Assembly (NCBI GenBank): GCA_902362725.1
Contig: CABIXM010000014.1
Span: 1-64,000, forward strand
Direction: 5' to 3'
From: Clostridiaceae bacterium
Lineage (GTDB): Bacteria > Bacillota > Clostridia > Lachnospirales > Lachnospiraceae
DNA length: 64,000 nucleotides
Positions within the stretch are counted from its first letter, which is position 1. The number at the start of each line of letters is the position of its first letter. Positions 20,688-38,854 of this stretch are shown in pieces. Made by a program: the position numbers and the translations under genes. The notes below the pieces were generated by a model. The model did no database searches. It worked only from the letters and a program-made list of their open reading frames with translations, and was not told the origin of the DNA.

Positions 20688-20699
20688 TGTTTCGAAACA
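20688..20699. promoter_or_regulatory. 12-bp palindrome TGTTTCGAAACA, candidate sugar-operon operator
   Basis: A perfect palindrome lies 52 bp upstream of the -35 of the sugar operon, with a related half site TTTTTCGAAAG ~35 bp downstream. Similar TTTCAAACGAAA occurs in the DeoR/activase intergenic region near 32796. The regulator could be the DeoR protein encoded at 31959; this is inference. Confidence 0.4.
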
Positions 20700-20750
20700 A
20701 TATAAAAAAGAAACAAAAAAAGTTTTTTTCGAAAGTAATTTATATTTCTA

Positions 20751-20779
20751 TTGACAAGCGTGAAACTGATCTATATAAT
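20751..20779 (+). promoter_or_regulatory. Promoter of the sugar operon
   Basis: TTGACA (20751-20756), 17-nt spacer, TATAAT (20774-20779): a consensus sigma-A promoter, 47 nt before the ROK gene start. Confidence 0.88.
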
Positions 20780-20825
20780 GATAAATATAAAATATAACAA
20801 AACAAATTCAATTTGGAGAAAAAAT

Positions 20826-21770
20826 ATGTGCAAAAAGTACAGGATTGGAATTGATGCAGGTGGAACCAAAGTAGCATACGGTTTGTTTGATGCGGACGGG
20901 CAGCTCCTGGATCGGATGCAGCATCCGTCGGATATCAATGCAGATGGCCCGGCCTTCAGCGACCGGATGATTGAGACCATCCGTGAGATCGAGAAGAAGC
21001 ATAACCTGAAGAACGGGGATTTGCAGGGAATCGGAATCTGCATGCCGTCCTATATTCTTTTTGATACCGGTTACGTCTATCTGACCTCGGCGCTGACGAA
21101 TATTCGCGATTTTCCCATGAAGGAATATCTGCAGGAGCGTCTGCCGGGTGTAAAGATTGTACTGGATAACGACAGCAATGCCGCAGCCCTGGCAGAGTAC
21201 CGCAAGGGAGCCGGACGGGGAAGCCGCCATATGATCTATATGGCCACCAGCACCGGAATCGGAAGCGGCATTATTGTAGATGGAAAGCTGTTCCGCGGAA
21301 GCTACGGCTGGGCTGGAGAGTGCGGACACATGCTGGCGACGCCGGACGAGGGCATCATGTGCGGATGCCGGAACAGGGGCTGCTTCATGTCCCACGCCAG
21401 CGGACGCTACGTGCCGAAGCATCTGAAAATCAAGATGCTGGAGGGCAGGGAAACTTCCATGGTGGACAAGGAAGATTTAAGCTGTGAGGATCTGCTGGCA
21501 GCCTACAACGAGGGCGACGAGCTGGCCATCGAAATGGTGGAGCAGATGGCGCACTACATTGCGGTCTGTGCGTACAACTGCTTCATGATGCTGAATATCA
21601 ACGTATTCGTATTCGGCGGCGGCCTGACCCATTTTGGCGACGCGCTGTTCGGCAGAGTGAGAAAGGAATTTGATCGTTACAATCAGATTCCCCTTCCGGT
21701 AGAATTCCGGTTCGCGGAACTGAAGAAAGATTTCGGTATCGTGGGAGCATCCGAACTGGTGCTTGACTGA
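20826..21770 (+). CDS. ROK-family sugar kinase (first copy)
   Basis: A 314-aa ROK protein: N-terminal ATP site GIDAGGTKVAYGLFD, catalytic Asp in VLDNDSNAAALAE, TSTGIGSGII, the zinc-site region GHMLATPDEGIMCGCRNRGC and C-terminal NVFVFGGGL. It has no N-terminal HTH, so it is a kinase and not a ROK repressor. The start at 20826 has GGAG 7 nt upstream; the longer ORF has no such site and would overlap the promoter. The usual GCxE after the second Cys pair is GCFM. A paralogue closes the operon at 30098. Probably phosphorylates the imported sugar. Confidence 0.88.
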   Translation: MCKKYRIGIDAGGTKVAYGLFDADGQLLDRMQHPSDINADGPAFSDRMIETIREIEKKHNLKNGDLQGIGICMPSYILFDTGYVYLTSALTNIRDFPMKEYLQERLPGVKIVLDNDSNAAALAEYRKGAGRGSRHMIYMATSTGIGSGIIVDGKLFRGSYGWAGECGHMLATPDEGIMCGCRNRGCFMSHASGRYVPKHLKIKMLEGRETSMVDKEDLSCEDLLAAYNEGDELAIEMVEQMAHYIAVCAYNCFMMLNINVFVFGGGLTHFGDALFGRVRKEFDRYNQIPLPVEFRFAELKKDFGIVGASELVLD

Positions 21771-21784
21771 TAAGGAGAGAGGGT

Positions 21785-22873
21785 ATGCGGATATTTACGG
21801 GAGGCTATACGGAGCCGATTTTGATGGGATCGGGCGAGATAGTAGAAGGAAGATGCAAGGGTATCGCCTGCTATGATTTCGATGAACAGACCGGGAAGCT
21901 GGCCTACCGGACAGTGACTGGTGACATTCAGAATCCCTCTTACGTACTGGCAGACGCAGAGGGCGCGTATCTGTACTGTGTCAATGAGCTGAAGGACTGG
22001 AATGGCATTGATGGTTCCACTGTTTCCGCATTTGTCATTGACCGGGAGACGGGAGCGCTTCGGCGCATCAACCGACAGTTTACCTGTGGGGCAGATGCCT
22101 GTCACCTGAGTTTTTCTCCAGATAAAAAGTACCTTCTGGTATCCAATTATTCCGGCGGCAGCCTGGCCGTGTACCGGATCCGGGAGGATCACGGACTGGA
22201 ACCGGCGACCTGTGTCCTGAGGCACCGGGGCCGGGGCGCGAACCCGGAGCGGCAGGAAGGTCCCCATATCCATCAGACTGTGATGGCGCCGGACGGACAG
22301 CATGTCTATGTGTCGGATCTGGGACAGGACGTATTTGCCTGCTACCGGGCGGACTGGGAGAAGGGATGGTTGCTTCCGGAGAAAGAGAAGAACATCTACG
22401 GTATCCCGGGACAGGGAACGAGACATGGCGCTTTCGATGGAAATGGAACACATTTCTATGTGATGACAGAACTGACCTGTGAGGTCAATGTCTATCAGTA
22501 TAAAGCCGGACAGGCAGAGCTGATGCAGACCATATCCGCGTTTGCGGATCCGGCGCAACAGACGGAAGGCTGTCTTGGCGCGGGTATCCGGATTCATCCC
22601 AGTGGGAAATGGGTCTACGGTGCGGTACGCGGTACAAACCATATCGCGGTATTCCGGGTGGAAGCGGATGGACGCCTGACACTGACAGAGACGAAGCTAA
22701 GCGGCGGTGAAATTCCCCGGGAGTTTATTCTGTCCCCGGACGGCAGGTATCTGCTGGCGGCAAATCAGGATACCGACAATATTTGCGTATTCGCAATAGA
22801 TGAGCATACAGGTGGTCTTAAGGAGGTCTGGAACCAGGAAAATGTCTACTGTGTCACCTGTATCACCTTCTGA
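21785..22873 (+). CDS. Lactonase family beta-propeller (6-phosphogluconolactonase-like)
   Basis: A 362-aa seven-bladed propeller of the YbhE/Pgl lactonase family with repeated blade motifs (NPSYVLADAEGAYLY, CHLSFSPDKKYLLVSNYSGG, PHIHQTVMAPDGQHVYVSDLG, GIRIHPSGKWVYG, PREFILSPDGRYLLAANQ). Expected to hydrolyse a sugar lactone to the acid. AAGGAG lies before the ATG, 14 nt after the ROK stop. With a 6-phosphogluconate dehydrogenase and KDG-kinase-like gene nearby, a gluconolactone or phosphogluconolactone substrate is plausible but unproven. Confidence 0.88.
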   Translation: MRIFTGGYTEPILMGSGEIVEGRCKGIACYDFDEQTGKLAYRTVTGDIQNPSYVLADAEGAYLYCVNELKDWNGIDGSTVSAFVIDRETGALRRINRQFTCGADACHLSFSPDKKYLLVSNYSGGSLAVYRIREDHGLEPATCVLRHRGRGANPERQEGPHIHQTVMAPDGQHVYVSDLGQDVFACYRADWEKGWLLPEKEKNIYGIPGQGTRHGAFDGNGTHFYVMTELTCEVNVYQYKAGQAELMQTISAFADPAQQTEGCLGAGIRIHPSGKWVYGAVRGTNHIAVFRVEADGRLTLTETKLSGGEIPREFILSPDGRYLLAANQDTDNICVFAIDEHTGGLKEVWNQENVYCVTCITF

Positions 22874-22914
22874 TGAATGAAGCAGATTGTGCACCTTACA
22901 GCTCAGAACGGGAG

Positions 22915-22943
22915 TTGTGGGAGACAGAGGTAAAAACTATAAT
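22915..22943 (+). promoter_or_regulatory. Internal promoter before the ABC importer genes
   Basis: TTGTGG (22915-22920), 17-nt spacer, TATAAT (22938-22943), about 100 nt upstream of the binding-protein gene. It allows extra transcription of the importer genes. Confidence 0.65.
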
Positions 22944-23041
22944 AGAGACAAATAAAGGACGGCGAAGCAACAACGATAATTTACAGGCAGAAGGCCTGTC
23001 GGTTATAGAAAAAACACAAAAAAGTAACAGGAGGAAACAAC

Positions 23042-24055
23042 ATGAAAAAGAAGGGATTAGCACTCTTACTGGCAGCGACCATGATCTGTGGTCTGGCAGC
23101 ATGCGGAAAGTCTGGCGGGGAGACCAAGACTGACGCAGCAGCAGACACAGCGCAGACCGAGGACACCGGCAACACAGCAGCGGCTTCCGGTGACGGCATT
23201 ACTGTAGGCTGGATTGTACAGGATATGGCGAATGAGTCTCAGTCTTATTCCTGCCGTATCGCAGAAGAGAAAGCGAAAGAGCTGGGAATCAACCTGACCT
23301 CTTACGATCAGGCTGGCGACGCTCAGAAGGCTACTGACGCTATCAGCACCTGTATCGCACAGGGTGTAGATGCTATCATTATCAACCCGGCAGATCCGCA
23401 GGCGGTTGTACCGGCTCTGATGGAAGCGAAAGAAGCCGGTATCGTAGTAGGACTTTTCTCTTCTGACCTGGCGGCAGAGAGCCAGCAGTACAGAGATTTC
23501 TTCTGCGGAACCAATGATACCATGGCAGGCGAGCAGGCGGCTCAGGCGATTATCGACGCATTCCCGGACGGCTGTAATGTAGTAGAGATCGGCGGACAGT
23601 CCGGACATGACGCGCAGGTTAAGAGAAGCGACGGCTTCAAGGCTGGTCTGGAAGGCTCCAACATCACGGTTCTGGATTCCAAGAACTGCGATCAGTGGGC
23701 AACTGAGGACAGTATGGCTATCATGGAAGACTTCATCGTAAAATACGGCGATAAGATCGACGCGGTATTCTGTCATTGGGACAACGGCGCTACCGGCGTT
23801 ATCAACGCGCTTGAAAACGCGAATATGGACGGCGTATATATCGTAGCAGTAGACGGATGCTCCGCAGGTTACGATCATGTTAAGGACGGCACCCAGGCTG
23901 TATGCATCGGCCAGTCCTTCACCAACATGGTAGCTCAGTCTCTGGATTGCGCACAGAAGGCAGTTGCAGGCGAGAGCTTCGAAGAAATCAACTGGATCCC
24001 GCTTGACACCGTTACATCTGAAAATGTAGACAGCTTACCCTATCCGGAGTGGTAA
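23042..24055 (+). CDS. Sugar ABC transporter substrate-binding lipoprotein
   Basis: A 337-aa periplasmic-binding-protein family 1 member (RbsB-like). Signal peptide MKKKGLALLLAATMICGLAAC with lipobox LAAC (Cys21). A Gly/Ser/Thr/Ala linker precedes the mature domain at ~residue 50. Motifs such as GVDAIIINPADPQAV near 110 and GSNITVLDSKNCDQW near 205 fit the ribose/galactose binding-protein group. Strong AGGAGG. The ligand cannot be read from sequence. Confidence 0.92.
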   Translation: MKKKGLALLLAATMICGLAACGKSGGETKTDAAADTAQTEDTGNTAAASGDGITVGWIVQDMANESQSYSCRIAEEKAKELGINLTSYDQAGDAQKATDAISTCIAQGVDAIIINPADPQAVVPALMEAKEAGIVVGLFSSDLAAESQQYRDFFCGTNDTMAGEQAAQAIIDAFPDGCNVVEIGGQSGHDAQVKRSDGFKAGLEGSNITVLDSKNCDQWATEDSMAIMEDFIVKYGDKIDAVFCHWDNGATGVINALENANMDGVYIVAVDGCSAGYDHVKDGTQAVCIGQSFTNMVAQSLDCAQKAVAGESFEEINWIPLDTVTSENVDSLPYPEW

Positions 24056-24082
24056 AAAAGAGAGAGTAACACAGAAGTGATT

Positions 24083-24165: not shown

Positions 24166-25644
24166 GTGGAACAGAAAAAAGATTTGATATTGAAGGTCAG
24201 CGGCGTAACGAAACGATTTCCGGGTGTTCTGGCGCTGAATAAAGTATCTTTGGAAATTCCCAAGGGCGTGGTATATGGAATTGTTGGAGAAAATGGAGCA
24301 GGAAAATCTACGCTGATGAAGATTCTGTCCGGCGTCTATGAAAAGGATGAGGGTACGATTGAGTTTGATGGGGAGATCATTGAGCATACCACACCGATTC
24401 AGGCGCTGCGCAGGGGCTTGAGCATCATTTACCAGGAGTTCAATTTGGTCAATACGATGACTGTGGGTGAAAATATTTTCCTCGGAAGATTCTCGGAAAA
24501 TCATGGGATGAAGGGTACCCATCAGAAGGCCCGCGAGCTTCTGGACAGCATCGGTAGCAAGATTGACACCTATACGCTGGTGGGGGATTTAAGCGCTTCC
24601 GAAATGCAGATGGTAGAGATTACCAAGGCTCTTTCCTTTGATTCGAAGCTGATCATCATGGATGAACCCAGCAGCAGTCTGACCACAGAGGAGCTGAAGA
24701 AGCTGGGCGAGATCATTTTCCAGTTGAGAAATAAGGGCATTTCTATCATCTATATCAGCCACAAGCTGGATGAGATTTTTGAATACTGCAATATTGTCAC
24801 CATTATGCGTGACGGTAATGTCATTGACACCAAACCTATCGAGGAACTGACCAGAAGCGAGATGATTGCCAAGATGGTGGGCCGTACCATCGAAAATGAG
24901 TACCCGCCCCGGGCACATTTCGTGGGAGAACCTCTTCTGGAGGTGAAAAACCTCAACACAAGTAAGCTACACGATATCAACTTTACTCTGCACAAAGGCG
25001 AGATCCTGGGTCTGGTAGGCCTGGTGGGAGCCGGAAGAACCGAGATCATCCGGGCCATCTATGGAGCGGATAAGGTCAAGAGCAAGGAGCTCATCATGGA
25101 AGGAAAACCTGTGACCGTATCGAGCCCCAGAGACGCGAAAGCGCTGGGCATGGGACTGGTTCCCGAGGACCGGAAGCAGGAGGGCCTGATTTTACGCTTT
25201 TCCGTAGGTGAAAATATCACCATGGCGGCCCTGAGCGAGATTGCGAAAAAGGGTGTGCTGAACCGTAAGAAAGAGAAGGAGATCGAGAATCGTCAGATTG
25301 AAAACCTTCTGATCAAGACGCCGAGCGCGGCTGCCAAGGTGTTGAATCTGTCCGGTGGAAACCAGCAGAAATGCGTCGTGGGAAGATGGCTGGAGCTGAA
25401 TCCCAAGGTATTGATTCTGGACGAGCCGACCAGAGGCATCGACGTAGGAGCAAAGTATGAGATTTATGTGCTGATGAACAAGATCGTGGAGCAGGGAGGA
25501 GCCATCATTATGATTTCCTCTGAGCTTCCGGAAGTTCTGAGCATGAGCAACCGCGTACTGACAGTCTGCGACGGCCGGATTACCGGAGAATTCTCTCCGG
25601 AGGAAGTAGATCCGAGCGAGATCATGGACAGGGCCATCGGATAA
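24166..25644 (+). CDS. Sugar ABC transporter ATP-binding protein (two ATPase domains)
   Basis: A 492-aa RbsA/MglA-type tandem ATPase. Domain 1 has Walker A GENGAGKST (~residue 42) and signature DLSASEMQMVEI; domain 2 has the degenerate Walker A GLVGAGRTE (~residue 287) and LSGGNQQKCVVGRWL. This tandem with a degenerate second Walker A is typical for ribose/galactose importers. Start codon is GTG at 24166 with AAAGGAG upstream. Confidence 0.93.
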   Translation: MEQKKDLILKVSGVTKRFPGVLALNKVSLEIPKGVVYGIVGENGAGKSTLMKILSGVYEKDEGTIEFDGEIIEHTTPIQALRRGLSIIYQEFNLVNTMTVGENIFLGRFSENHGMKGTHQKARELLDSIGSKIDTYTLVGDLSASEMQMVEITKALSFDSKLIIMDEPSSSLTTEELKKLGEIIFQLRNKGISIIYISHKLDEIFEYCNIVTIMRDGNVIDTKPIEELTRSEMIAKMVGRTIENEYPPRAHFVGEPLLEVKNLNTSKLHDINFTLHKGEILGLVGLVGAGRTEIIRAIYGADKVKSKELIMEGKPVTVSSPRDAKALGMGLVPEDRKQEGLILRFSVGENITMAALSEIAKKGVLNRKKEKEIENRQIENLLIKTPSAAAKVLNLSGGNQQKCVVGRWLELNPKVLILDEPTRGIDVGAKYEIYVLMNKIVEQGGAIIMISSELPEVLSMSNRVLTVCDGRITGEFSPEEVDPSEIMDRAIG

Positions 25645-25660: not shown

Positions 25661-26632
25661 ATGGGAAAATCAATCGACGTAAAAAAATTCTTGTTACACA
25701 ATCTTGTGTTGCTGGGCATCGTGGTACTGTGCGTGGTAACGGCGATTGTGGAGCCTTTATTTCTGACACAGAATAACTTTACCAATATTTTGAGACAGTT
25801 CGGTCCCTTAAGCTTTGTAGCGCTGGGTATGACCTACGTGATCATTGGCGGCTTTCTGGACCTGTCTGTGGTAGGTATCATTTCACTGGTAGGCGTGGTG
25901 ACGCTGTCCCTGATTGACCCGTTGGGTCAGGTGGGCGCGCTGCTCTGCGGCCTGCTTCTGGGAACCTTCTTAGGCTTCCTGAACGGCGTGATCCTGGTGG
26001 GCTTTGGCGCCCGGATTCAGGCGGAGGTTCTGTTCATCACCTATGGAATGAGCTCGATCTTCGGGGCTATTGCGCTGATTTATACCAATTCCGAGACGGA
26101 GCATATGTCCCGCCTGTCCAATCCCTACACCATTTTCACTTGGATTGGAAAGGGAAAAGTGGGCCCCCTGGCGGTATCCATGATTCTCTTTGTCATTTCA
26201 CTGGTGGCGGTGGAGTGGTTCTACCGTAAGACTCTCTGGGGCCGACAGATCGCGCTGATGGGCGGCAATAAGATTGCGGCGACGCTTTGTGGTTACAATA
26301 TGAAGCGCACCATGGTTCTGGTATATACCATCTGCGGCCTGTTCGCAGGCATGGGTTCGATTGTTCTGATTTCACGTGTTACGACCGCGTCTCCGGTGGC
26401 CGGAGCAGGCTATGAGACGGACGCCATCATGTCCGTAGTCGTAGGCGGCACGGCGCTGGCCGGAGGAACCGGAAGCGGCATCCGGACCGTGCTCGGAGTA
26501 CTGTTAATTATCTTGTTATCCAACTGTATGAATATGCTGGGCGTGTCTACTTATCTGCAGACCATCATGAAGGGTCTCGTTCTTGTCATCGCTATCTGGC
26601 TGGATAATCGTAAAGAACAACAGATTCATTAA
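25661..26632 (+). CDS. Sugar ABC transporter permease 1
   Basis: A 323-aa multi-pass membrane protein of the RbsC family. Conserved GMTYVIIGGFLDLSV near the second membrane segment, a cytoplasmic loop with GGNKIAATLCGYN, and GAGYETDAIMSVVVGGTALAGG near residue 245, the EAA-like coupling region. AAGAGG precedes the ATG. First of two permeases, presumably forming a heterodimer. Confidence 0.92.
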   Translation: MGKSIDVKKFLLHNLVLLGIVVLCVVTAIVEPLFLTQNNFTNILRQFGPLSFVALGMTYVIIGGFLDLSVVGIISLVGVVTLSLIDPLGQVGALLCGLLLGTFLGFLNGVILVGFGARIQAEVLFITYGMSSIFGAIALIYTNSETEHMSRLSNPYTIFTWIGKGKVGPLAVSMILFVISLVAVEWFYRKTLWGRQIALMGGNKIAATLCGYNMKRTMVLVYTICGLFAGMGSIVLISRVTTASPVAGAGYETDAIMSVVVGGTALAGGTGSGIRTVLGVLLIILLSNCMNMLGVSTYLQTIMKGLVLVIAIWLDNRKEQQIH

Positions 26633-26644: not shown

Positions 26645-27613
26645 ATGGATACCAAGCGTGTTTTCATAAAAGCAAAACAAGTTTTACTGAAGCAGAAAGC
26701 AGTATTGGCGATTCTGGCAATGCTGATTCTAATGTTGTTTTTCAACACACAGTTTTACAGTGTATACAACTGGATGAACGTATTCCGTTCCGCGACGGTA
26801 CAGGGAATCATTGCCATGGGCGTGACTATGACCGTGCTCTGCGCGGCCTGCGATCTGTCGGTGGGTGGAATCATGTGTCTGTCCGGTGTTATTACGGTTC
26901 TGATGATCAATTCCGGTATGCCCATCGCGGTAGCCTGCCTCTGCGCATTGCTGGCCGGAGCGGCTGTGGGTCTGGTCAATGGGTTCCTGGTAGTACATCA
27001 GAGAACGGAGCCCTTTATCATTACTCTGGGTATGGGAACCCTGCTGAAGGGTATCTGCCAGCAGCTGACGGACGCGCACCCGATTGCCTGCACCAATATG
27101 GAATTCATGAAGATTTCCAATACCAAGATTTTCGGACATATTCCGATTCTGGTGCTGTATATGGCGATCATTCTGGTGATTTTTTTCTGCGTGCTGCGGT
27201 TTACGACCTACGGAAGAAACTGCTATGCCATCGGAGGCAATTATGATGTGGCGAAATATTCCGGTATCAATACGGTGATGATCAAGTGGTCCACTTTTGT
27301 AATCTCCGGCGTGATGGCGGCGCTGGCGGGTATTCTCCTGTCCTCCAGAATGAACTCTGCGTCCTCCGTGTACGGAGACAATACCGGTATGCTGGTCAAC
27401 TGCGGCGTCGTAATCGGCGGAACCTCCTTCGCGGGTGGTATCGGCGGTGTGGTACAGAGCTTTATAGGAGTGTTCGTTTTGCAGTTGATGTCTAACTGTA
27501 TGGACTGTCTGGGAATCGGAGCCTATGTGCAGCAGCTTCTGCAGGGTATCATTATTGTACTGATTCTGGGATTTGACTGCTTCGGCCGTCTGAGAAAGCG
27601 GGAGCATGTATAA
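26645..27613 (+). CDS. Sugar ABC transporter permease 2
   Basis: A 322-aa RbsC-family permease, paralogous to the previous gene: GVTMTVLCAACDLSVGG, loop GGNYDVAKYSGINT and VNCGVVIGGTSFAGGIGG match the same positions. AAGGAGG lies before the ATG, 12 nt after permease 1. Two distinct permeases beside one tandem ATPase mark the heterodimeric subtype of the CUT2 group. Confidence 0.92.
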   Translation: MDTKRVFIKAKQVLLKQKAVLAILAMLILMLFFNTQFYSVYNWMNVFRSATVQGIIAMGVTMTVLCAACDLSVGGIMCLSGVITVLMINSGMPIAVACLCALLAGAAVGLVNGFLVVHQRTEPFIITLGMGTLLKGICQQLTDAHPIACTNMEFMKISNTKIFGHIPILVLYMAIILVIFFCVLRFTTYGRNCYAIGGNYDVAKYSGINTVMIKWSTFVISGVMAALAGILLSSRMNSASSVYGDNTGMLVNCGVVIGGTSFAGGIGGVVQSFIGVFVLQLMSNCMDCLGIGAYVQQLLQGIIIVLILGFDCFGRLRKREHV

Positions 27614-27631: not shown

Positions 27632-28675
27632 ATGAGCGTGACAGTGAAAGCATTTGACAAACTTCGGGACGGACGGATCGCGAACCTGTACACCATTGAG
27701 AATCAGAAGGGGATGCAAGCCGTATTGACGGATTTCGGAGCCGTTCTGGTGAAGCTTCTGGTGCTGGATCAGGACGGAAAGCTGAGAGATGTGGTGCTGG
27801 GTTATGACGAACTGGAAAAATACGAGGATAATTTTGATATGCTGGGAACGACAGTGGGCCGTAATGTGAACCGGATTGAGAAGGGCCGTTTTACTATCGA
27901 CGGCGTGGAGTATCAGCTGGAAATCAATGAGAATGATAATAACATTCACAGCAGCATGGCCCACGGCTTCCACAAGGTCCTCTGGGAGGCAGAGAGTTTC
28001 ACGGATGACAGCGTATCCTTCACCTATCACAGCCCCGACATGGAAAACGGATTTCCGGGCAATCTGGATATCTCACTGACCTATACGCTGACGGATACAG
28101 GCGCTCTGATTCTGTCCTATTATGGAACCACAGATAAAAAGACACTGGTAAATCTTACCAATCACTCTTATTTTAACCTGTCTGGCTATGAGACGGGCAA
28201 TATTTTGGATACCATCGTGTGGATCAACGCGGAGCAGTTTACACCGGTGCGGAAGGGAATCATTCCCACCGGGGAAATCCGCGATGTGGCTGGTACGCCC
28301 ATGGATTTTCGGAAGCCCAGGGCCATCGGGCAGGAGATTCACGCCGATGACGAGCAGCTGAAGCTGGTCTATGGCTACGATCACAATTTCGTTTTGAAAG
28401 GTTTCGGAAAGGGACTCCGCAAAGCCGCGACAGCCGAGAGTCCCAAGTCGGGCATTCGGATGACCGTGTATACAGATCTGCCGGGCCTGCAGTTTTACGC
28501 AGGCAATACCACCCGGGACATCATAGGAAAGGGCGGTGTGCTGATTACGAAAAATAGCGGCTTCTGTATGGAAAGCCATTATTACGCCAACAGCATCAAC
28601 ACTCCGAATTTCCCGCAGCCCATTCTGGATAAGGGCGGGCTGTATAAGACGACGACTATCTATCAGTTTACATAA
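27632..28675 (+). CDS. galM: Galactose mutarotase (aldose 1-epimerase)
   Basis: A 347-aa GalM-type beta-sandwich. Key features are GRNVNRIEKGRF (~residue 72), the catalytic His of NLTNHSYFNLSG (~173), and the acid/base Glu near the C terminus (SGFCMESHYYANSINTPNFP). Interconverts the alpha and beta anomers of a hexose. AAGGAGAG precedes the ATG. Belongs to the sugar operon; its presence argues for a free reducing sugar in the pathway. Confidence 0.92.
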   Translation: MSVTVKAFDKLRDGRIANLYTIENQKGMQAVLTDFGAVLVKLLVLDQDGKLRDVVLGYDELEKYEDNFDMLGTTVGRNVNRIEKGRFTIDGVEYQLEINENDNNIHSSMAHGFHKVLWEAESFTDDSVSFTYHSPDMENGFPGNLDISLTYTLTDTGALILSYYGTTDKKTLVNLTNHSYFNLSGYETGNILDTIVWINAEQFTPVRKGIIPTGEIRDVAGTPMDFRKPRAIGQEIHADDEQLKLVYGYDHNFVLKGFGKGLRKAATAESPKSGIRMTVYTDLPGLQFYAGNTTRDIIGKGGVLITKNSGFCMESHYYANSINTPNFPQPILDKGGLYKTTTIYQFT

Positions 28676-28707
28676 TGAAAACATAAAAGAAGGAGGAGTC
28701 TGTGGTC

Positions 28708-31071: not shown

Positions 31072-31905
31072 ATGAGTATTCGACTGATTGCGTTCGACTT
31101 GGACGGAACGCTTCTGAAAGAGGATAAGACAGTTTCCGGGAGAACCATGGCCGCGCTTCAGAATGCGACGGATCGCGGCATCTATCTGGTGCCCTCCACA
31201 GGCAGAATTTACGACGGCATGCCGGATGTGGTAAAGAATATGCCTTTTGTCCGCTATGCCATAACGGTCAATGGAGCGCAGATTTATGACGTGAAAGAAA
31301 AAAGGATTTTGCACCGGGCAGAGCTGACCCGGGCGGAGTCAGAGGCTGTCTTTGCTTACGGCAGAGATTGGGAAGTACTCTGCGGCTGCTATCAGAATGG
31401 CCAGGGCCTGATGGAAGAGAAGGATTTTGCGGATCTGCGGTTCTATGCCCAGAATGTAAAGGCGGCAGAAATGATGAAGCAGGTGTACCGGCCTTTGAAA
31501 AATATGGAGAAAAGGATCTTCGATATAGAGCCGACGATTCAGAAGATTCAGTATTATTTCCGGGAAATTCCGGAGAGGAACCGGAGACTGCCGGAGATGA
31601 AGGCGCATTTTCCCAATCTGGAGATTTCCACATCCCTGCCGAACAACATTGAGATTAATTCGGCTAAGGCGAATAAGGGCCTGGCACTAAAATTCCTGTG
31701 CGGATATCTGGGAATCGGGCTGGAGGAATGTATGGCGTTCGGCGACGGAACCAACGATCTGGCGCTTCTGAAGACTGCAGGCAGAGGCATGGCCATGGCT
31801 AATGCGGACCCGGAAGTGTTGAAAGCAACGGCGTATCATACGGCCTGTACCAATGAAGAGGACGGCGTGGCGATCGAGATAGAAACCTGTTTAAAAGAAG
31901 TATAA
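31072..31905 (+). CDS. HAD-superfamily Cof-type phosphatase
   Basis: A 277-aa HAD IIB (Cof) hydrolase: FDLDGTLLKED at residues 8-18, VPSTGR motif II, Lys in the SAKANKGLAL region (~200) and GDGTNDLALL near 225. Usually dephosphorylates sugar phosphates. GAGGTG lies before the ATG, 11 nt after the ROK stop. Last gene of the operon; probably relieves sugar-phosphate build-up or acts in the pathway. Confidence 0.9.
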   Translation: MSIRLIAFDLDGTLLKEDKTVSGRTMAALQNATDRGIYLVPSTGRIYDGMPDVVKNMPFVRYAITVNGAQIYDVKEKRILHRAELTRAESEAVFAYGRDWEVLCGCYQNGQGLMEEKDFADLRFYAQNVKAAEMMKQVYRPLKNMEKRIFDIEPTIQKIQYYFREIPERNRRLPEMKAHFPNLEISTSLPNNIEINSAKANKGLALKFLCGYLGIGLEECMAFGDGTNDLALLKTAGRGMAMANADPEVLKATAYHTACTNEEDGVAIEIETCLKEV

Positions 31906-31911: not shown

Positions 31912-31961
31912 AAAAATACCGCTTTTCCGGAAAAAAGCAAACCGAAAAAGCGGTGTTTTTA
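31912..31961. terminator. Bidirectional terminator between HAD and DeoR genes
   Basis: Inverted repeat AAATACCGCTTTT / AAAAAGCGGTGTTTTT with T runs on both strands, serving two convergent genes. Confidence 0.8.
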
Positions 31962-32714
31962 TGCCTGTGTCGTGGTGGTGATGACCTGGATGCCGTGGCG
32001 TTCCATGGTCTCTTTGCATTCCGGGGTAATTTGGTCGTCGGTAACGACCATGGAGACCTCTTCGGAATCGAACAGCTTGGCGACGCTGCGTTTTCCGAAT
32101 TTATCGGAGGTGGTCAACACGATGACATGGTCGGCCTGCTTCGCAAATTCTTTTACCACGGCACTTCGGGTGTGATTGATATTAGTGAAGCCGTTTTCCT
32201 CGGTGTAGCCGTCTACGCCGACGAACAGCTTGTCTACGTGGTATTCCCGGGCGCAGAGCTGCGTGACGGGGCCGGTGGTAACCTCGGCTACCGTATCGTA
32301 ATCGCCGCCCAGCAGAATAATGTGCGCGGTAGGCACCTGATTCAGGTAGCGGGCGATATAAGCGGAATTGGTGATAATGGTGACGTCTTTCTGAATGGCC
32401 GCTTCCAGCGCGAACAGGGCGCAGGTGGAACCGGACTCAATCATAATGGTCTCCATGGGCTCGACGATCTCCATGGCCCGTTTGGCGATGGCCTTTTTCT
32501 CCGAATAATGGAAAGCCATACGGGAATTGATGGCGTCCGGCGAGGCCTTTGTGGCGTAGCCGTGCTGACGTCTTAAGAGTCCCTGGGACTCCAGCTCCTC
32601 CAGGTCCTTGCGGATAGTTACCATGGAGAGCTTCAGAAGCTCGGACAGCTCCTGGACGCTGACCTTTTCTTTCTCATTGACGAGGTTTATGATTTGTAAA
32701 TGGCGTTCTTTCAT
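31959..32714 (-). CDS. DeoR-family sugar-responsive regulator
   Basis: A 251-aa DeoR protein: N-terminal winged HTH (VSVQELSELLKLSMVTIRKDLEELE, ~residues 17-41) and C-terminal DeoRC sensor (ESGSTCALFALEAA, NSAYIARYL, LFVGVDGYTEENG). DeoR regulators usually repress sugar operons and respond to sugar phosphates. The ATG at 32714 has AAGGAG ~10 nt upstream; the longer version starting at 32735 has none. Divergent from the glycyl-radical activase gene and flanked by the sugar operons it most likely controls. Confidence 0.9.
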   Translation of the reverse strand: MKERHLQIINLVNEKEKVSVQELSELLKLSMVTIRKDLEELESQGLLRRQHGYATKASPDAINSRMAFHYSEKKAIAKRAMEIVEPMETIMIESGSTCALFALEAAIQKDVTIITNSAYIARYLNQVPTAHIILLGGDYDTVAEVTTGPVTQLCAREYHVDKLFVGVDGYTEENGFTNINHTRSAVVKEFAKQADHVIVLTTSDKFGKRSVAKLFDSEEVSMVVTDDQITPECKETMERHGIQVITTTTQA

Positions 32715-32829
32715 TTGCTTCGTTCTCCTTTGCATTTATTATATAATAAGTGGGAAAATAATGCCACATATTTTCGCTAAAAATTTCAAGAATATTTCAA
32801 ACGAAATATAAAATAATTTCAAAAATAAG

Positions 32830-32858
32830 TTTACAAACAATAATGCGAATGATAAACT
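32830..32858 (+). promoter_or_regulatory. Promoter of the activase gene
   Basis: TTTACA (32830-32835), 17-nt spacer, TAAACT (32853-32858), ~30 nt before the start. The upstream TTTCAAACGAAA (32796-32807) resembles the palindrome before the ABC operon. Confidence 0.5.
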
Positions 32859-32888
32859 AAGAATAAGAAAAGAAAAAGGAGTTATTTC

Positions 32889-33668
32889 ATGGGAAATTCA
32901 GCAGAAAAAGGGCTTATTTTTAATATTCAGAAGTTCAGTATCAACGACGGACCGGGCATTCGCTCCACCGTATTTTTCGCGGGCTGTCCCTTAAGCTGCC
33001 GCTGGTGTTCTAACCCGGAATCCCAGAACCGCTTCCGGAAGAAGGCGCTGGCGTCGGGCGATAAGAAGCTCATTGGCCGGGAATGGACCGTGGAAGAGGT
33101 GCTGGAGGAAGTGGAGAAGGACCGGGAGTTCTATGAGGAATCCGGGGGCGGTATCACCCTGTCCGGCGGTGAGGTATTGCAGCAGCACGCCTTTGCGGTG
33201 GAGCTTCTGAAGGAGGCGCAGAGCCGGGGACTGCACTGCGCGGCGGAGACTACTGGGTATGCCAGCCACGAGGTATTTCGGGAGTTTGTGGAGTATATTG
33301 ACCTGCTTCTTTTTGATATGAAGCATTGGGATCGGGAAAAGCATTTTGAAAAGACAGGCGTGTATAACGATATAATTCTGGAAAATATGGGATACGCAGT
33401 GTCCCAGGGGATTCCGCTGATTGCCCGGATTCCGGTGATCCCGAAGTTCAATGCCAGCCTGAAGGATGCGGCAGGGATGGCAGAAAACTTATGTAAACTT
33501 GGAATCCGTGAGGTACATCTGCTCCCTTTCCATCAGTTCGGGGAAAAGAAATACGAGCAGCTGGAGACAGAGTATGAGATGAGCGGTGTGCCGCAGCTGC
33601 ATCCGGAGCAGTTGCAGAAGTACATCCAGGTATTCCTGGACAGGGGACTGGACGCCAGCTTTAAGTAA
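32889..33668 (+). CDS. Glycyl-radical enzyme activating protein (radical SAM)
   Basis: A 259-aa PflA-type radical SAM enzyme: NDGPGIRSTVFFAGCPLSCRWCSNPES contains the C-x3-C-x2-C 4Fe-4S motif (~residues 31-38), followed by ITLSGGEVLQQ. It lacks the Cys-rich ferredoxin-like insert (two extra clusters) that many GRE dehydratase activases carry, and is correspondingly short. AAAAGGAG precedes the ATG. It would install the glycyl radical on the enzyme at 36324, which is on the opposite strand 2.7 kb away. Confidence 0.93.
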   Translation: MGNSAEKGLIFNIQKFSINDGPGIRSTVFFAGCPLSCRWCSNPESQNRFRKKALASGDKKLIGREWTVEEVLEEVEKDREFYEESGGGITLSGGEVLQQHAFAVELLKEAQSRGLHCAAETTGYASHEVFREFVEYIDLLLFDMKHWDREKHFEKTGVYNDIILENMGYAVSQGIPLIARIPVIPKFNASLKDAAGMAENLCKLGIREVHLLPFHQFGEKKYEQLETEYEMSGVPQLHPEQLQKYIQVFLDRGLDASFK

Positions 33669-33746: not shown

Positions 33747-35198
33747 TTAAGCGTTGTAAGTGCTGGCTGCGGTATCGCCGCCGTGGCCGGTCCAGTTGGT
33801 ATGGAAGAACTGTCCGCGGGGAGCGTCCAGCCGCTCATAGGTGTGCGCGCCGAAATAATCGCGTTGCGCCTGTAAAAGATTGGCCGGAAGCCGGTCGGTG
33901 GTGTAGCCGTCGAAATAGCTTAAGGCCGCCGTCATAGCCGGAGCCGGGACGCCGTACTGGATGGCTGCCGCCGCGACTTTCCGCCAGGCCGGAAGCAGCC
34001 GCTCCATGGTCTCACGAAAATAGGGATCCAGCAGCAGGTTGGCGAGGGCTGGATTGGCGTCGTAGGCTTCCTTGATTTTACCCAGGAAAACGCTTCGGAT
34101 GATACAGCCGCCGCGCCACATGAGGGCGATGCCGCCGTAATTCAGGTTCCAGCCGTAGTGCTCCGCCGCCGTACGCATCAGGGAATAGCCCTGGGCATAG
34201 GAAATGATTTTGCTGGCGTAGAGAGCCTGATGGATGGCTTCCACCATCTCTTTTCTGTCGCCGGTAAAAGCCGGGATGGCGCGCCGGTACGCTGACGCCG
34301 CCGCCACACGCTCTTCCTTCATGGCGGAGAGGCAGCGGGCGAATACGGCTTCGCCGATCAGGGTCAGCGGAACGCCCTCGTCCAGGGCGGCAATGCCGGT
34401 CCATTTGCCGGTTCCCTTCTGTCCTGCCGTATCGAGAATCTTCTCCACGATGGGGCTGCCGTCGGTATCCTTGTAAGCGAGAATGTCCCGCGTAATTTCG
34501 ATGAGGTAGCTGTCCAGTTCCGTCTGATTCCAACAGGCAAAGACTTCTTGCATCTCGTCGTCCGACATACCAAGCAGATCCCGCATAAGCTGGTAAGCCT
34601 CGCAGATCAGCTGCATATCGCCATATTCGATGCCGTTGTGTACCATTTTCACAAAATGGCCTGCGCCGTTCTCGCCGACCCAGTCGCAGCAGGGGCTGCC
34701 GTCCTCCACCTTCGCGCAGATGGCCTGGAAGATGGGCTTTACGAAGGGCCAGGCAGCAGGCGAACCGCCGGGCATCATGCTGGGGCCCCTGAGCGCGCCC
34801 TCTTCGCCGCCGGATACGCCGGTTCCCACATAGAGTTTTCCCTGAGCTTCCACAGAAGCGGTTCTGCGGATGGTGTCGGGAAAATGGGAGTTGCCGCCGT
34901 CTATGATGATATCGCCGTCCTCCAGAAGCGGTAACAGCTGTGTAATCATATCGTCTACGGCCTGGCCGGCTTTTACCATCAGGAAAACCTTGCGGGGTTT
35001 TTTCAGGGCGTCCACCAGCTCGGTCAGGGAGTGGCAGCCGATGATGTTTTTGCCGGAAGCGCGGCCGTTTACAAATTTGTCGACTTTCTCGGTGGTGCGG
35101 TTGTAGACAGCCACGGTAAAGCCTTTGGATTCCATATTCATGACCAGATTTTCGCCCATGACGGCCAGGCCGATGAGACCGATATCTGCTTCTTTCAT
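33747..35198 (-). CDS. gnd: 6-phosphogluconate dehydrogenase (decarboxylating)
   Basis: A 483-aa Gnd: N-terminal GLAVMGENLVMN Rossmann region, the signature GTGVSGGEEGALRGPSMMPGG near 127, catalytic Lys/His region HFVKMVHNGIEYGDMQLICE near 183, and C-terminal GQFFHTNWTGHGG. Full length. Converts 6-phosphogluconate to ribulose 5-phosphate with CO2 and NAD(P)H. AAGGAGG precedes the ATG. Last gene of the GRE-kinase-gnd operon, 15 nt after the kinase stop. Confidence 0.95.
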   Translation of the reverse strand: MKEADIGLIGLAVMGENLVMNMESKGFTVAVYNRTTEKVDKFVNGRASGKNIIGCHSLTELVDALKKPRKVFLMVKAGQAVDDMITQLLPLLEDGDIIIDGGNSHFPDTIRRTASVEAQGKLYVGTGVSGGEEGALRGPSMMPGGSPAAWPFVKPIFQAICAKVEDGSPCCDWVGENGAGHFVKMVHNGIEYGDMQLICEAYQLMRDLLGMSDDEMQEVFACWNQTELDSYLIEITRDILAYKDTDGSPIVEKILDTAGQKGTGKWTGIAALDEGVPLTLIGEAVFARCLSAMKEERVAAASAYRRAIPAFTGDRKEMVEAIHQALYASKIISYAQGYSLMRTAAEHYGWNLNYGGIALMWRGGCIIRSVFLGKIKEAYDANPALANLLLDPYFRETMERLLPAWRKVAAAAIQYGVPAPAMTAALSYFDGYTTDRLPANLLQAQRDYFGAHTYERLDAPRGQFFHTNWTGHGGDTAASTYNA

Positions 35199-35213
35199 AT
35201 TCTGTATGCCTCC

Positions 35214-36287
35214 TTATCTCTGCACGCGGGCGTTGCCTTTATAGATATCCCAGACCTGTTTTTCATCTGCCGGTTCCGCATAGTCGTTGAGACTGGATGC
35301 GGCCAGGACGCCGGACGCCCAGCCGAACTGCAGGCATTTATCGGGAGCCCAGCCGTTCAGCACGCCGTAGAGCAGGCCGCCGGAGAAGCCGTCGCCGCCG
35401 CCGATGCGGTCCAGAACCTGAATCGGACGGGGCTCTTCCACGTACCACTGGCCGTCAGCCAGAAGAATGGCGCCCCAGAGGTGTTCATTGGCGGAAAGTA
35501 CCTGCCGGAGGGTGGTGGCAAACATGCGGGTATGAGGGTAACGTTCTTTTACCTGGGAAATCATGCCTTTGAAGGAATCTATTTTCTCGGAAAGGTCTTT
35601 GCCACCGGTCTCGGGGCCTTCAAAGCCCAGGCAGAGCTGGAAATCCTCTTCGTTGCCGATGAGAATATCGGCCTGGGAAGCGATCTCGTGGAAAGCCTGG
35701 TGAAGCTCAGCATCCCGTCCGGCCCAGAAGGTGGCCCGATAGTTCAGATCAAAGGAAATCAGGGTGCCGTACTGCTTCGCCACTTTGGCGAGAGCTAGGC
35801 AGCAGGCGGTAGTCTCGGGACTCATGGCCGCAATCAGGCCGGAGAGATGCAGGATGCCTACGCCTTCCTGGCCGAAGATGCGCTCCACATCGAACTCGTC
35901 GATGGAAAGGGTGCGGCCCACTTCGCCTGCTCGGTCATTCCAGACCCGGGGCGCCCGGAGACCGAAGCCGGAATCCGCGATATTGAACTGATGACGATAG
36001 CCCCAGGGGCCGCCCTGATCGACTTCCGCGCCTTCAAAAGCGATATTGCGGGCGCGAAGCTGACGCCGGATAAAATCCGCCATGGGACTTCCTTTTACAA
36101 ATTTTGTAAGAATCAGGCACTCGCGTCCCAAGGAGGACGCCACGTTCAGGACGTTGGATTCGGCGCTGGTGGCCTGCATATAGAATAAATTGCTGTTCTG
36201 CACACTCATCCGGTTTTCCGGGGTGATGCGCAGCCCCATACTGGTCGGGGCTGCGATGGCATAACGTTTCGTTTTCATGGATGTCAT
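35214..36287 (-). CDS. PfkB-family sugar kinase, KDG-kinase-like
   Basis: A 357-aa ribokinase-fold kinase: an N-terminal substrate region (TSAESNVLNVASSLG), NEEDFQL near 220, and the ATP/anion-hole motif DRIGGGDGFSGGLLYG near 302 with catalytic Asp. It resembles 2-keto-3-deoxygluconate kinases. AAAGGAG precedes the first ATG; a second ATG 9 nt on is possible. It is the middle gene of the GRE-kinase-gnd operon, 36 nt after the GRE. If it makes KDPG, the KDPG-type aldolase at 49285 could use it. Confidence 0.88.
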   Translation of the reverse strand: MTSMKTKRYAIAAPTSMGLRITPENRMSVQNSNLFYMQATSAESNVLNVASSLGRECLILTKFVKGSPMADFIRRQLRARNIAFEGAEVDQGGPWGYRHQFNIADSGFGLRAPRVWNDRAGEVGRTLSIDEFDVERIFGQEGVGILHLSGLIAAMSPETTACCLALAKVAKQYGTLISFDLNYRATFWAGRDAELHQAFHEIASQADILIGNEEDFQLCLGFEGPETGGKDLSEKIDSFKGMISQVKERYPHTRMFATTLRQVLSANEHLWGAILLADGQWYVEEPRPIQVLDRIGGGDGFSGGLLYGVLNGWAPDKCLQFGWASGVLAASSLNDYAEPADEKQVWDIYKGNARVQR

Positions 36288-36323
36288 AAAAATCTCCTTT
36301 GCTGGCCGGCAGAGAAGCCGGAC

Positions 36324-38738
36324 TTAGAGAGACTGCTCCGTTCTTCCGATGATATCGTCCTGGGTCTTCTTGGATAATACGTTGAAGAAAGCACTGTAGC
36401 CTGCCACGCGGACGATCAGATCCTTGTGCTTCTCCGGGTGGAGCTGAGCGTCGATCAGGGTCTCCCGGGATACAATGTTGTACTGGACATGATAGCCGTG
36501 GAGTCGGTTGAAGAAGGTGCGGATCAACATCTCCAGCTTCTGTTTGTTCTCTTCCCTGGACAGTACCTGGGGCGTCATTTTCTGGTTCAGCAGAACACCA
36601 CCGGTAATTTTGTCGGTGGGAAGCTTGGACACGGTCTTAAATACGGCGGTGGGGCCGTTTTTGTCGCAGTTATGGGCCGGGCTGCAGCCTTCTGCCAGCG
36701 GCTCAAAGGCGTGGCGTCCGTCCGGAGTGGCCATGGTTCCCATACCCTGCCCCACATTAGCGCTGATGGAGGAGGTTCCCGCGTAGCGGATACCGCCGAT
36801 GGGGCCGCGGTGGTAGCGGGTGCTGGGGTATTTCTTAATCTCGTCGATATAGGTGTCGTAGGCGCGTACCACCAGGAGATCTACGTCGTCGTTGTCATTG
36901 CCGTATTTGGGTGCGTCGTTGATGAGCATTTCCTGAATCTTCTGGTTCTCCGGGGACTGGAAGTCGTCGAGAATCGCGTTCCAGAGCTCATCCCGGGTGA
37001 TTTTTTTCTCATCATAGACTAGCTTCTTGACAGCGGCCAGGGAGTCCGCCATGTTGGCAATGCCCACCTGAAGGCCGGAGATAAAGTCGTAGACTGCACC
37101 GCCCTCTTTGATGGTCTTGCCGCGGCCGATACAGTCGTCGGTCAGGGCAGAGCAGAGGATATCGGGCACATCCCGCTCGGAGGCCTTGTCGATGGCATTT
37201 TCCACAATGACGCTGTAACGGGTCAGTTCACGCAGGGATTTATCCCAGGCGTCTAGCAGCTCCTCGTAGCTCTCCATATCCTGGAAGTGTCCGTAGCCCT
37301 TTACAAAGCGCTTGCCGCTGGTCAGATCCACGCCGTCATTCATGACGCAGAGGAGCAGACGGGGGAAGTTAATGTAGGACATGCCGGTACAGCGGTAGCC
37401 CCATTTTCCGGGAACGGCGGTCTCCACGCAGCCAATGGCGCTGTAGTTATAGGCATCTTCCTCTTTGACGCCCCACTGGATAAAGGACGGGATGATAATT
37501 TCGTCGTTGTTCAGGGCCGGCATGCCGAAGCCCAGCTTCATGACCTCGATGCATTCGTCGAAAAATTTCGGATCCAGGTTTGCGTGATAGCGAACCGTCA
37601 GGTTCGGCTGGGTCAGACGGGTCTGGGCCACAGACTGGAGCACCAGGAAGCTTAAGGGATTGACAGCGTCCTTTTTGTCTACGGTCTGGCCGCCGATGGT
37701 GACATTCTGGTACATGGGCGAACCTGCGGAGCTTAAGGTGTGGGCCTGGGAACGGACCTTATTGATGGTCAGGGTCTTGATCCACAGACAGGTCAGTAGT
37801 TCCAGAGCTTCCTCTCTGGTGATGGTTCCGTCCTGCAGGGACTTCTCATAGTAGGGATCCATATACTGGTCGAAACGGCCGTAACTTAAGGAATGGCCGT
37901 TGGACTCAATTTGCAGAATCAGCTGGATAAACCAGACGGACTGTACAGCCTCGCGGAAGTTGGAAGCGGGTTCGTAGGGAACCTTGGCGCAGATACGGCT
38001 CATTTCCAAAAGTTCGGCTTTCCGTGCGGCGTCGCTTTCCCTGGCGGCCAGATCAGCGGCCAGTTCACTGTAGCGGAGCGCAAAAGCCCGGACCGCTTCG
38101 ATGACAATCAGAACGGCCTTATAGAATACATTTTTGTCGATGCTGTCCGGGTCGGTCAGGTCGAGGGCTTCCTTGCAGGCGCGGGCCTTGGCTTCGTAAC
38201 CCCGCAGTCCTTCTTTCAGAAGACGCTCGTAATTCACAGCCAGGTGGGCGTCTCCAGCGTTCAGCTTGCCTTCCATGCCAAACAGGCCGGTCTCCATAAA
38301 GACGCTGACTTCGTCGGGCAGAAGGGCTTCGCCACGGGCGCGGAGATTGTTATTCTCCCAGAAGGGAGCGATGGACCGAAGCTGTTCTTTGGTTTCCTCG
38401 GTGATGTAGAACACGTCGCCGTCGCGCTTCTCGAACAGATCCAGCTCATTCATGACGAATTCCAGGGTATATTCGGGGAAAACGGGAGCATTGCGGTTCT
38501 TGGTAGCTTGATTTCCTGCGAGAAGGGATTTATCTTCAATATAGACGGTCATATGCTCCAGAATCTTCTGCAGCATCAGGGCACGCACCATGACCCTGGG
38601 CTGGTTCAGGCTCTCACGGTAAGCCTCCGTGGCCCAGATGGCACGCTCGGCGTCCACATAGGGTTTCTCATCCAGAACTTCTTCGCGAAAAGCCTGCATG
38701 CGTTCGGTTAAAGTGCCGAAATGGTTTTCGTTTTTCAT
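36324..38738 (-). CDS. Glycyl radical enzyme (PflD/YbiW-like dehydratase/lyase)
   Basis: An 804-aa GRE. The active-site thiyl Cys is C437 within IGCVETAVPGKWGYRCTG with Glu439; the glycyl radical is G780 in RVAGYSAF; C-terminal DIIGRTEQSL. The GCVE pattern separates it from true pyruvate formate-lyase (which has two adjacent Cys) and places it among dehydratase/lyase GREs. The GCVET-PGKWGYRCTG stretch recalls the E. coli YbiW/PflD group. From memory, that group has been linked to ring-opening of 1,5-anhydroglucitol 6-phosphate; I cannot verify this here. First gene of an operon with KDG-kinase-like and gnd genes. AAGGAGG precedes the ATG. Substrate not assignable from sequence. Confidence 0.92.
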   Translation of the reverse strand: MKNENHFGTLTERMQAFREEVLDEKPYVDAERAIWATEAYRESLNQPRVMVRALMLQKILEHMTVYIEDKSLLAGNQATKNRNAPVFPEYTLEFVMNELDLFEKRDGDVFYITEETKEQLRSIAPFWENNNLRARGEALLPDEVSVFMETGLFGMEGKLNAGDAHLAVNYERLLKEGLRGYEAKARACKEALDLTDPDSIDKNVFYKAVLIVIEAVRAFALRYSELAADLAARESDAARKAELLEMSRICAKVPYEPASNFREAVQSVWFIQLILQIESNGHSLSYGRFDQYMDPYYEKSLQDGTITREEALELLTCLWIKTLTINKVRSQAHTLSSAGSPMYQNVTIGGQTVDKKDAVNPLSFLVLQSVAQTRLTQPNLTVRYHANLDPKFFDECIEVMKLGFGMPALNNDEIIIPSFIQWGVKEEDAYNYSAIGCVETAVPGKWGYRCTGMSYINFPRLLLCVMNDGVDLTSGKRFVKGYGHFQDMESYEELLDAWDKSLRELTRYSVIVENAIDKASERDVPDILCSALTDDCIGRGKTIKEGGAVYDFISGLQVGIANMADSLAAVKKLVYDEKKITRDELWNAILDDFQSPENQKIQEMLINDAPKYGNDNDDVDLLVVRAYDTYIDEIKKYPSTRYHRGPIGGIRYAGTSSISANVGQGMGTMATPDGRHAFEPLAEGCSPAHNCDKNGPTAVFKTVSKLPTDKITGGVLLNQKMTPQVLSREENKQKLEMLIRTFFNRLHGYHVQYNIVSRETLIDAQLHPEKHKDLIVRVAGYSAFFNVLSKKTQDDIIGRTEQSL

Positions 38739-38784
38739 AGTGACCTCCTTTGAACGTAAATCATAGTACTTTCGTATATATATT

Positions 38785-38813
38785 ATACTACCATTGAACG
38801 GTCACTACGTCAA
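38785..38813 (-). promoter_or_regulatory. Promoter of the GRE operon
   Basis: On the minus strand TTGACG (38813-38808), 17-nt spacer, TAGTAT (38790-38785), with an overlapping TATAAT 3 nt further on. About 45 nt before the GRE start. Confidence 0.65.
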
Positions 38814-38854
38814 TTCAAACTTTCAAATAAAAGAATAAAAAGTTTCGTTAGAAA

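Follow-up and report, generated by a model that had tools for sequence, protein, structure and literature searches.

A YbiW-type glycyl radical enzyme linked to a sugar importer operon with ROK kinases in a Lachnospiraceae bacterium: a candidate locus for 1,5-anhydroglucitol degradation

The DNA analyzed here is a stretch of 64,000 nucleotides of contig CABIXM010000014.1 from a Clostridiaceae bacterium placed in the Lachnospiraceae (assembly GCA_902362725.1), referred to below as the window. It contains a glycyl radical enzyme (GRE) of the YbiW clade with the expected catalytic residues, encoded in one locus with an activating enzyme, a DeoR-family regulator and an operon for an ATP-binding cassette (ABC) sugar importer and ROK-family kinases, and this linkage is conserved in other genomes. 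The analyses point to a locus that degrades 1,5-anhydroglucitol (AG), a glucose analogue and diabetes marker, via the importer, the first kinase of the operon (ROK1) and the YbiW-type GRE, a reading to which we give a probability of about 0.7. In E. coli, YbiW converts 1,5-anhydroglucitol 6-phosphate to 1-deoxyfructose 6-phosphate, according to the available part of the review PMC12441222 (citing Ma et al., 2024, JACS 146:26187), which also describes two such lyases with different substrates, YbiW and PflD.

The GRE is full length, with both the PFL-like and the glycyl radical domains present. Comparison with solved structures gave 887 bits for 6xs4 and 869 for E. coli YbiW, against 611 for glycerol dehydratase, 569 for propanediol dehydratase and 479 for PflD, and the aligned identity was 50% to YbiW, 41% to glycerol dehydratase and 37% to PflD. 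In a FastTree phylogeny of 103 GREs, rooted with a partial PflB and built without named propanediol dehydratase, CutC or HypD sequences, the smallest clade that held both the window GRE and YbiW comprised 87 sequences with a support of 0.987, and glycerol dehydratase, PflD and PflB fell outside it. The window GRE and its closest relatives formed a clade of eight sequences (support 0.996; one locus entered twice) nested inside members linked to an aldolase gene, with several inner nodes between it and YbiW poorly supported (0.25-0.77). The initial annotation had named Cys437 and Glu439 as the residues to look at; both are present, as the thiyl cysteine and the glutamate base, together with the radical glycine G780, and all three were kept in 82 of 82 clade members of at least 55% identity. 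Furthermore, an 84-sequence clade has 45 polar columns with a conservation of 97% or more that distinguish it from glycerol dehydratase and PflD; the window GRE matches all 45 of them and YbiW 36. An activase gene lies nearby at 32889-33668 (ORF list, NCBIfam).

Other members of the same enzyme family scored lower and were rejected as identities. The CutC and HypD models were under their NCBIfam cut-offs (533 of 1050 and 575 of 1100 bits, respectively), propanediol dehydratase had the lower structure score given above, and B12-independent glycerol dehydratase, which shares the catalytic Cys, Glu and Gly, had a lower score and lies outside the YbiW clade. The enzyme was rare in the genome samples, being found in 10 of 299 at an E-value of 1e-200 and in 21 of 295 at 1e-250, and the highest identity to the window GRE in these genome searches was 89%. 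A database GRE with a rounded identity of 100% is labelled Laedolimicola sp., a genus in the Lachnospiraceae, and others are labelled uncultured Clostridium or Eubacteriales; the host bacterium is probably of gut origin.

Downstream of the E. coli lyases, FsaA and FsaB cleave the product and GldA carries out a reduction. The gene fsaA adjoins ybiY, and the pair fsaB-gldA is near pflD. The neighborhoods of the GRE were examined in the best 80 of 119 confirmed stretches from relatives, whose GREs are 75-89% identical to that of the window, and 70 of these loci, having at least 900 bases downstream, could be evaluated for a gene resembling fructose-6-phosphate aldolase (FSA) within 1.5 kb. Such a gene was present in 54 of the 70. 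The placement in the YbiW clade, the catalytic residues and these aldolase neighbors favor the opening of AG 6-phosphate over the dehydration of gluconate, and thus lend support to the first of the two reactions suggested in the initial annotation, a YbiW-like ring opening. The window itself and the six closest relatives (L003-L008) had no FSA-like gene near the GRE and, as they nest among aldolase-linked members, loss of the gene from the neighborhood is the simplest reading.

The features of the locus are listed below, with reading frames and orientations from an open reading frame (ORF) list and names from Pfam and NCBIfam models. These agreed with the gene set and orientations described in the initial annotation; the substrates of all proteins of the window, here and below, are predictions.

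20826..21770, + strand, ROK1, ROK-family sugar kinase, proposed 1,5-anhydroglucitol kinase (PF00480)
21785..22873, + strand, 7-bladed beta-propeller lactonase, gluconolactonase/6-phosphogluconolactonase type (PF10282, 311 bits)
23042..24055, + strand, sugar-binding protein of a CUT2-type ABC importer (PF13407, 165 bits)
24166..25644, + strand, ABC importer ATPase with two ATPase domains (PF00005, two stretches)
25661..26632, + strand, ABC importer permease 1 (PF02653; 59-90% identity in relatives' GRE loci)
26645..27613, + strand, ABC importer permease 2 (PF02653; 63-84% in relatives' GRE loci)
27632..28675, + strand, aldose 1-epimerase, GalM (PF01263, 269 bits; 80-82% in two other GRE loci)
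28702..30096, + strand, GH4 glycosidase, 6-phospho-beta-glucosidase-like (PF02056/PF11975; 86-89% in two other GRE loci)
30098..31060, + strand, ROK2, second ROK-family kinase (PF00480; 78-81% in two other GRE loci)
31072..31905, + strand, HAD-IIB (Cof-type) phosphatase-like protein (TIGR00099, PF08282; 56-60% in two other GRE loci)
31959..32735, - strand, DeoR-family regulator (PF08220/PF00455; 69-83% in the closest genomes' GRE loci)
32736..32888, no strand, deoR/activase intergenic control region with CGAAA/TTTCG half-sites (2 half-sites)
32889..33668, + strand, radical S-adenosylmethionine (SAM) GRE-activating enzyme, short form (TIGR02494, 278 bits)
33747..35198, - strand, gnd, decarboxylating 6-phosphogluconate dehydrogenase (TIGR00873, 762 bits, cut-off 427)
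35214..36287, - strand, PfkB-family kinase, proposed aldonate kinase paired with gnd (PF00294; closest PDB chain 2afb)
36324..38738, - strand, YbiW-type GRE, proposed 1,5-anhydroglucitol-6-phosphate lyase (PF02901 699 bits, PF01228 115 bits)

The plus-strand operon thus runs from the ROK kinase through the lactonase, the importer, the mutarotase, GH4 and the second ROK kinase to the HAD protein. The minus-strand operon consists of GRE, PfkB and gnd with intergenic gaps of 36 and 15 bases; the activase is convergent with gnd, and deoR is divergent from the activase. A ribose-type binding protein, a double ATPase and BPD_transp_2 permeases define a CUT2 monosaccharide importer, and the importer of the window has all three, the closest PDB chains of its binding protein being sugar-binding proteins of the ribose/monosaccharide kind. 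The listed ORF of ROK1 begins upstream, at a TTG at 20751. ROK glucokinases are its closest solved structures, it scored 195 bits with the ROK glucokinase model of NCBIfam (cut-off 260), and its relatives near YbiW-type GREs are 58-79% identical. For the lactonase all NCBIfam matches were under cut-off; its closest PDB chains include putative 6-phosphogluconolactonases, the gluconolactonase PpgL ranking fourth, and its relatives at GRE loci are 54-66% identical.

The importer operon and the GRE block are linked. In two other genomes, G309 (L183) and G312 (L184, L185), the genes follow the order GRE, activase, DeoR, ROK1, lactonase, binding protein, ATPase, two permeases, GalM, GH4, ROK2 and HAD, with an extra short ORF before HAD in G312, so that the block of GRE, activase and DeoR stands at the opposite end of the operon from that in the window. 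As the same gene set adjoins the three genes of this block, with a GRE of YbiW type, in both genomes, chance does not account for the arrangement. Relative to the window, the GRE is 66-67% identical, the activase 75-76%, the lactonase 62-66% and HAD 56-60%; DeoR, ROK1, the importer, GalM, GH4 and ROK2 are 78-92% identical. In five more genomes (G002, G005, G006, G310, and G023) the importer, the lactonase, ROK1 and a YbiW-type GRE are found together with a second GRE, which is PflD-like and has an activase of its own, and with a protein of about 590 residues that resembles a kinase. The co-occurrence of the two operons in other genomes, which the initial annotation had proposed to look for, was therefore found, as the full set in two genomes and as importer and first kinase with the GRE in five. 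Matches of 79-81% to the ATPase occurred in 4 of 12 genomes searched, all on the contig of the YbiW-type GRE, the other listed matches being at most 53%; three further genomes had the ATPase at 79-92%. Among 96 GRE loci, a ROK1-like kinase was within 4 kb of the YbiW-type GRE in 13, where the GRE identity was 58-89%. In G148 a single stretch holds ABC genes (28-40% identical), DeoR, a ROK1-like kinase (42%), GRE, activase and FSA. The window GRE is 88-89% identical to those of L003-L008 and 66-67% to those of G309 and G312, whereas the importer is closer to G309 and G312 (ATPase 90-92%). This pattern suggests that another GRE of the clade took the place of the original one, with the link retained and the order of the blocks altered.

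The activase of the window has 51 residues and no Cys between the CxxxCxxC and SGGE motifs, whereas YbiY has a Cys-rich insert, with 97 residues and six Cys in that interval. The activase could be measured in 90 of the 96 loci; the insert was long, with 5-10 Cys, in 75 and short, with 0-2 Cys, in 15. Of these short forms, 13 belong to the window, L003-L008, L074, G315, G309, G312, G310, and G023, and the other two (L036 and L043) have FSA. The short form offers a natural test for the role of the Cys-rich insert in GRE activases. Regarding regulation, CGAAA/TTTCG half-sites occurred nine times across three control regions compared with a mean of 0.73 in mononucleotide shuffles, and none of 5000 shuffles reached nine; this background consists of mononucleotide shuffles only, and AT-rich windows generally average 1.1 but overlap the sites. 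The regions upstream of the GRE had 2-3 half-sites in six relatives, and upstream of ten FSA-type GREs there were 0-1 in eight cases and four in two. When regions were compared in pairs for a long operator in common, the scores barely exceeded those of eight shuffles each; the count of the short half-sites alone stood out, and in several comparisons it was weak or the sites were absent.

These data are consistent with the following pathway. The CUT2-type importer would bring in AG or a similar monosaccharide-sized compound, and ROK1 would phosphorylate AG to AG 6-phosphate. The short radical-SAM activase is predicted to install the glycyl radical on the GRE, an oxygen-sensitive enzyme of YbiW type that would open the ring by C-O cleavage, converting AG 6-phosphate to 1-deoxyfructose 6-phosphate. 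This product would probably be split by an FSA-like enzyme encoded elsewhere, or by another enzyme where FSA is absent. The ROK1 operon, the GRE operon and the promoters of deoR and the activase are probably under DeoR control, a shared regulation predicted from the half-sites. GH4, ROK2 and GalM may form an added beta-glucoside branch, and the lactonase, PfkB and gnd would convert gluconolactone or gluconate to 6-phosphogluconate and further to ribulose 5-phosphate.

Several results weigh against this pathway. Regarding the last step, no FSA-like gene was matched by tblastn in the window. Among 86 evaluable loci, 59 had FSA only (within 5 kb), 12 ROK1 only (within 4 kb), one had both and 14 neither, counts that ignore kinship and place the window under "neither" because its ROK1 is 14.5 kb from the GRE, a distance that is itself unfavorable. 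Of 13 related genomes, for which assembly completeness is not given, eight (G001-G004, G309, G315, G317, and G148) had FSA-like matches of at least 139 bits and the other five (G005, G006, G023, G310, and G312) had no clear match: the FSA model found nothing in G005 and G006, the Pfam model gave a transaldolase-like match in G006, and the matches in G023, G310 and G312 were weak and partial. As for the linkage, among the six nearest relatives L006 is without ROK1 and L005 has only a partial stretch, and no ATPase match above 53% was found in the genomes of three of the six (G001, G003, and G004). YbiW is without 9 of the 45 clade columns, the half-site background is limited as described above, and the ROK1 upstream regions of four relatives had only 0-1 half-sites. 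The lactonase is found in ABC-type loci without a clear role in an AG route. Finally, the minus strand at 51280-53413 encodes a mannose-family phosphotransferase system (PTS; IIB, IIC, and IID) at a distance of about 12.5 kb from the GRE, and genes resembling such a PTS by eye are near the GRE in L049. AG may therefore enter through a PTS; the system of the window may be a second AG entry route or be unrelated.

The single locus with both FSA and ROK1 by the GRE, together with the five genomes without FSA, is the basis for a further idea, namely that organisms of the ABC/ROK type process 1-deoxyfructose 6-phosphate without an aldolase, by an undescribed way, which we regard as unlikely. Known GH4 chemistry passes via a 3-keto-1,2-unsaturated sugar, and in a bolder form of this idea the co-conserved GH4 may act on phosphorylated beta-glucosides with a reduction in place of the hydration, and in this way supply AG 6-phosphate.

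Alternatively, the GRE could act as an AG 6-phosphate lyase next to an ABC/ROK/GH4 operon for an unrelated beta-glucoside, the neighbors having no common substrate. In four stretches (L156-L159) relatives of GH4 are found, without a GRE, beside GalM or genes that look like PTS or ABC components, with one ROK-like kinase (partly by eye), the GH4-GalM pair recurring in L156; the 59 of 86 loci with FSA and no ROK1 by the GRE, and the possibility that the mannose-family PTS of the window imports AG as its phosphate, fit this explanation as well. It is nevertheless rather less probable, since the 13 loci described above, over a GRE identity range of 58-89%, have a ROK1-like kinase no more than 4 kb from the YbiW-type GRE, and since the operon of G309 and G312 is still linked to a GRE of 66-67% identity when the ABC ATPase is 90-92% identical. 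A different substrate for the GRE, either another anhydro-hexitol phosphate or another 6-phospho compound of like shape, appears quite unlikely. The two E. coli enzymes differ in substrate (PMC12441222, available part), six relatives of the ABC/ROK1 type (G002, G005, G006, G023, G310, and G315) carry a PflD-like GRE in the locus, and YbiW has just 36 of the clade columns; but the window GRE has all 45, which were defined as unlike PflD, is far closer to YbiW (50%) than to PflD (37%), and nests among aldolase-linked GREs.

Highly improbable, in our view, is the second reaction of the initial annotation, in which gluconate from the lactonase reaction is dehydrated by the GRE, giving 2-keto-3-deoxygluconate for phosphorylation by PfkB. 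The lactonase does share the locus with this PfkB, whose closest solved structure (2afb) is a 2-keto-3-deoxygluconate kinase; the NCBIfam matches of PfkB are under cut-off. However, the GRE belongs to a YbiW clade with aldolase neighbors, and a gene for 2-keto-3-deoxy-6-phosphogluconate aldolase was not recognized among the locus genes scanned with family models. PfkB and gnd (at least 40% identity, within 5 kb) were beside the GRE in only 1 of 96 loci, that of the window itself, and the pair recurs in L151 among dehydrogenase-looking genes, in an 11-kb stretch without a GRE. The pair was accordingly rejected as a part of the GRE pathway, and its recurrence in L151 suggests an aldonate kinase with a 6-phosphogluconate dehydrogenase. 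PfkB-gnd is probably a separate gluconate branch; the proposal of an alternative branch through gnd was thus retained, now with PfkB included, but its place downstream of the GRE was probably mistaken. From the initial interpretation as a whole, the AG 6-phosphate reading and the link between the operons were kept, whereas the gluconate reading and a role for PfkB-gnd in the GRE pathway were not. PfkB matches were present in 2 of 200 family genomes at an E-value of 1e-90; at 1e-60 the search took in at least 7996 of 8000 scored candidates.

The locus can also be compared with other known systems. The YbiW-YbiY-FsaA system of E. coli has a GRE of the same clade with the same catalytic Cys, Glu and Gly and 36 of the 45 clade columns, and an activase gene that adjoins the GRE gene, the two being in the same locus in the window. 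In the E. coli route a PTS phosphorylates AG on entry, according to the available part of PMC12441222, whereas the window has an ABC importer and ROK kinases; E. coli has fsaA beside ybiY, and no aldolase was found near the GRE of the window; and the window has a short activase and adds GH4, the lactonase and PfkB-gnd. PflD-PflC of E. coli is a 1,5-anhydromannitol 6-phosphate lyase, with a related reaction and the same product as YbiW (same part of PMC12441222). PflD-like GREs occur in the loci of the six relatives named above, the window GRE is just 37% identical to PflD, and no second GRE stood out among the window ORFs of at least 150 amino acids. Beta-glucoside operons of the BglK/BglA type combine a ROK kinase with a GH4 6-phospho-beta-glucosidase. 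The window likewise has GH4, a ROK kinase and a mutarotase together, but in combination with a GRE and an importer of the CUT2 type. The closest PDB chains of its GH4 are 6-phospho-beta-glucosidases, the best NCBIfam match is an alpha-galactosidase subfamily (under cut-off), and 3 of the 96 GRE loci (the window, G309, and G312) contain a GH4 of at least 50% identity.

The entry by importer and ROK kinase, the attached GH4, the shortened activase and the absence of an aldolase gene nearby are apparently new features. No description of an ABC/ROK-type AG locus was found among the listed titles and opening abstract lines of the literature on YbiW, anhydroglucitol and GREs or in the available parts of PMC12441222, PMC12965863, PMC13259140, and PMC11574389, a scope with subscription papers mostly outside it. 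If true, a PTS-free AG route in Lachnospiraceae would mean that more gut bacteria are able to consume AG, and it would supply candidates for an AG kinase and an AG importer that can be tested, and reveal a gap at the last step.

Further observations concern GREs that share a locus or a genome. G003 and G004 have three YbiW-clade GREs each (88, 58, and 57% identical); in both, the 58% GRE is beside a ROK1-like kinase and ABC genes, and in G003 the 57% GRE is beside an FSA-like gene. A PflD-like GRE with its activase shares the locus with a YbiW-type GRE in L100, L101, L102, L147 with L103, and L186 with L187. The protein of about 590 residues at these five loci has a sugar-kinase-like motif by eye, the scanned copy having no Pfam or NCBIfam match, and a shikimate-dehydrogenase-like protein is present in four of the five. 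L188 and L189 bring together an FSA-like gene, a YbiW-type GRE (61%), a relative of the 590-residue protein (42-43%) and a PflD-like GRE.

The GC content of GRE-PfkB-gnd (0.55-0.59) was not strongly separated from that of ROK1-HAD (0.50-0.55). A SelA-like pyridoxal phosphate protein accompanies the mannose-family PTS (50022-53413, minus strand), and an apparent C-terminal AraC-type fragment, judged by eye, is encoded on the minus strand at 38739-40153, in the gap that separates the GRE from the plus-strand operon that follows. Upstream of the GRE block, L003, L005 and L006 have amylase-like and glgB-like genes (the L003 copies were scanned and the others grouped with them). In L008, a Gfo/Idh/MocA oxidoreductase is encoded by the activase gene's side (L008:13246-14205), with 1,5-anhydro-D-fructose reductase among its weak matches (48 bits).

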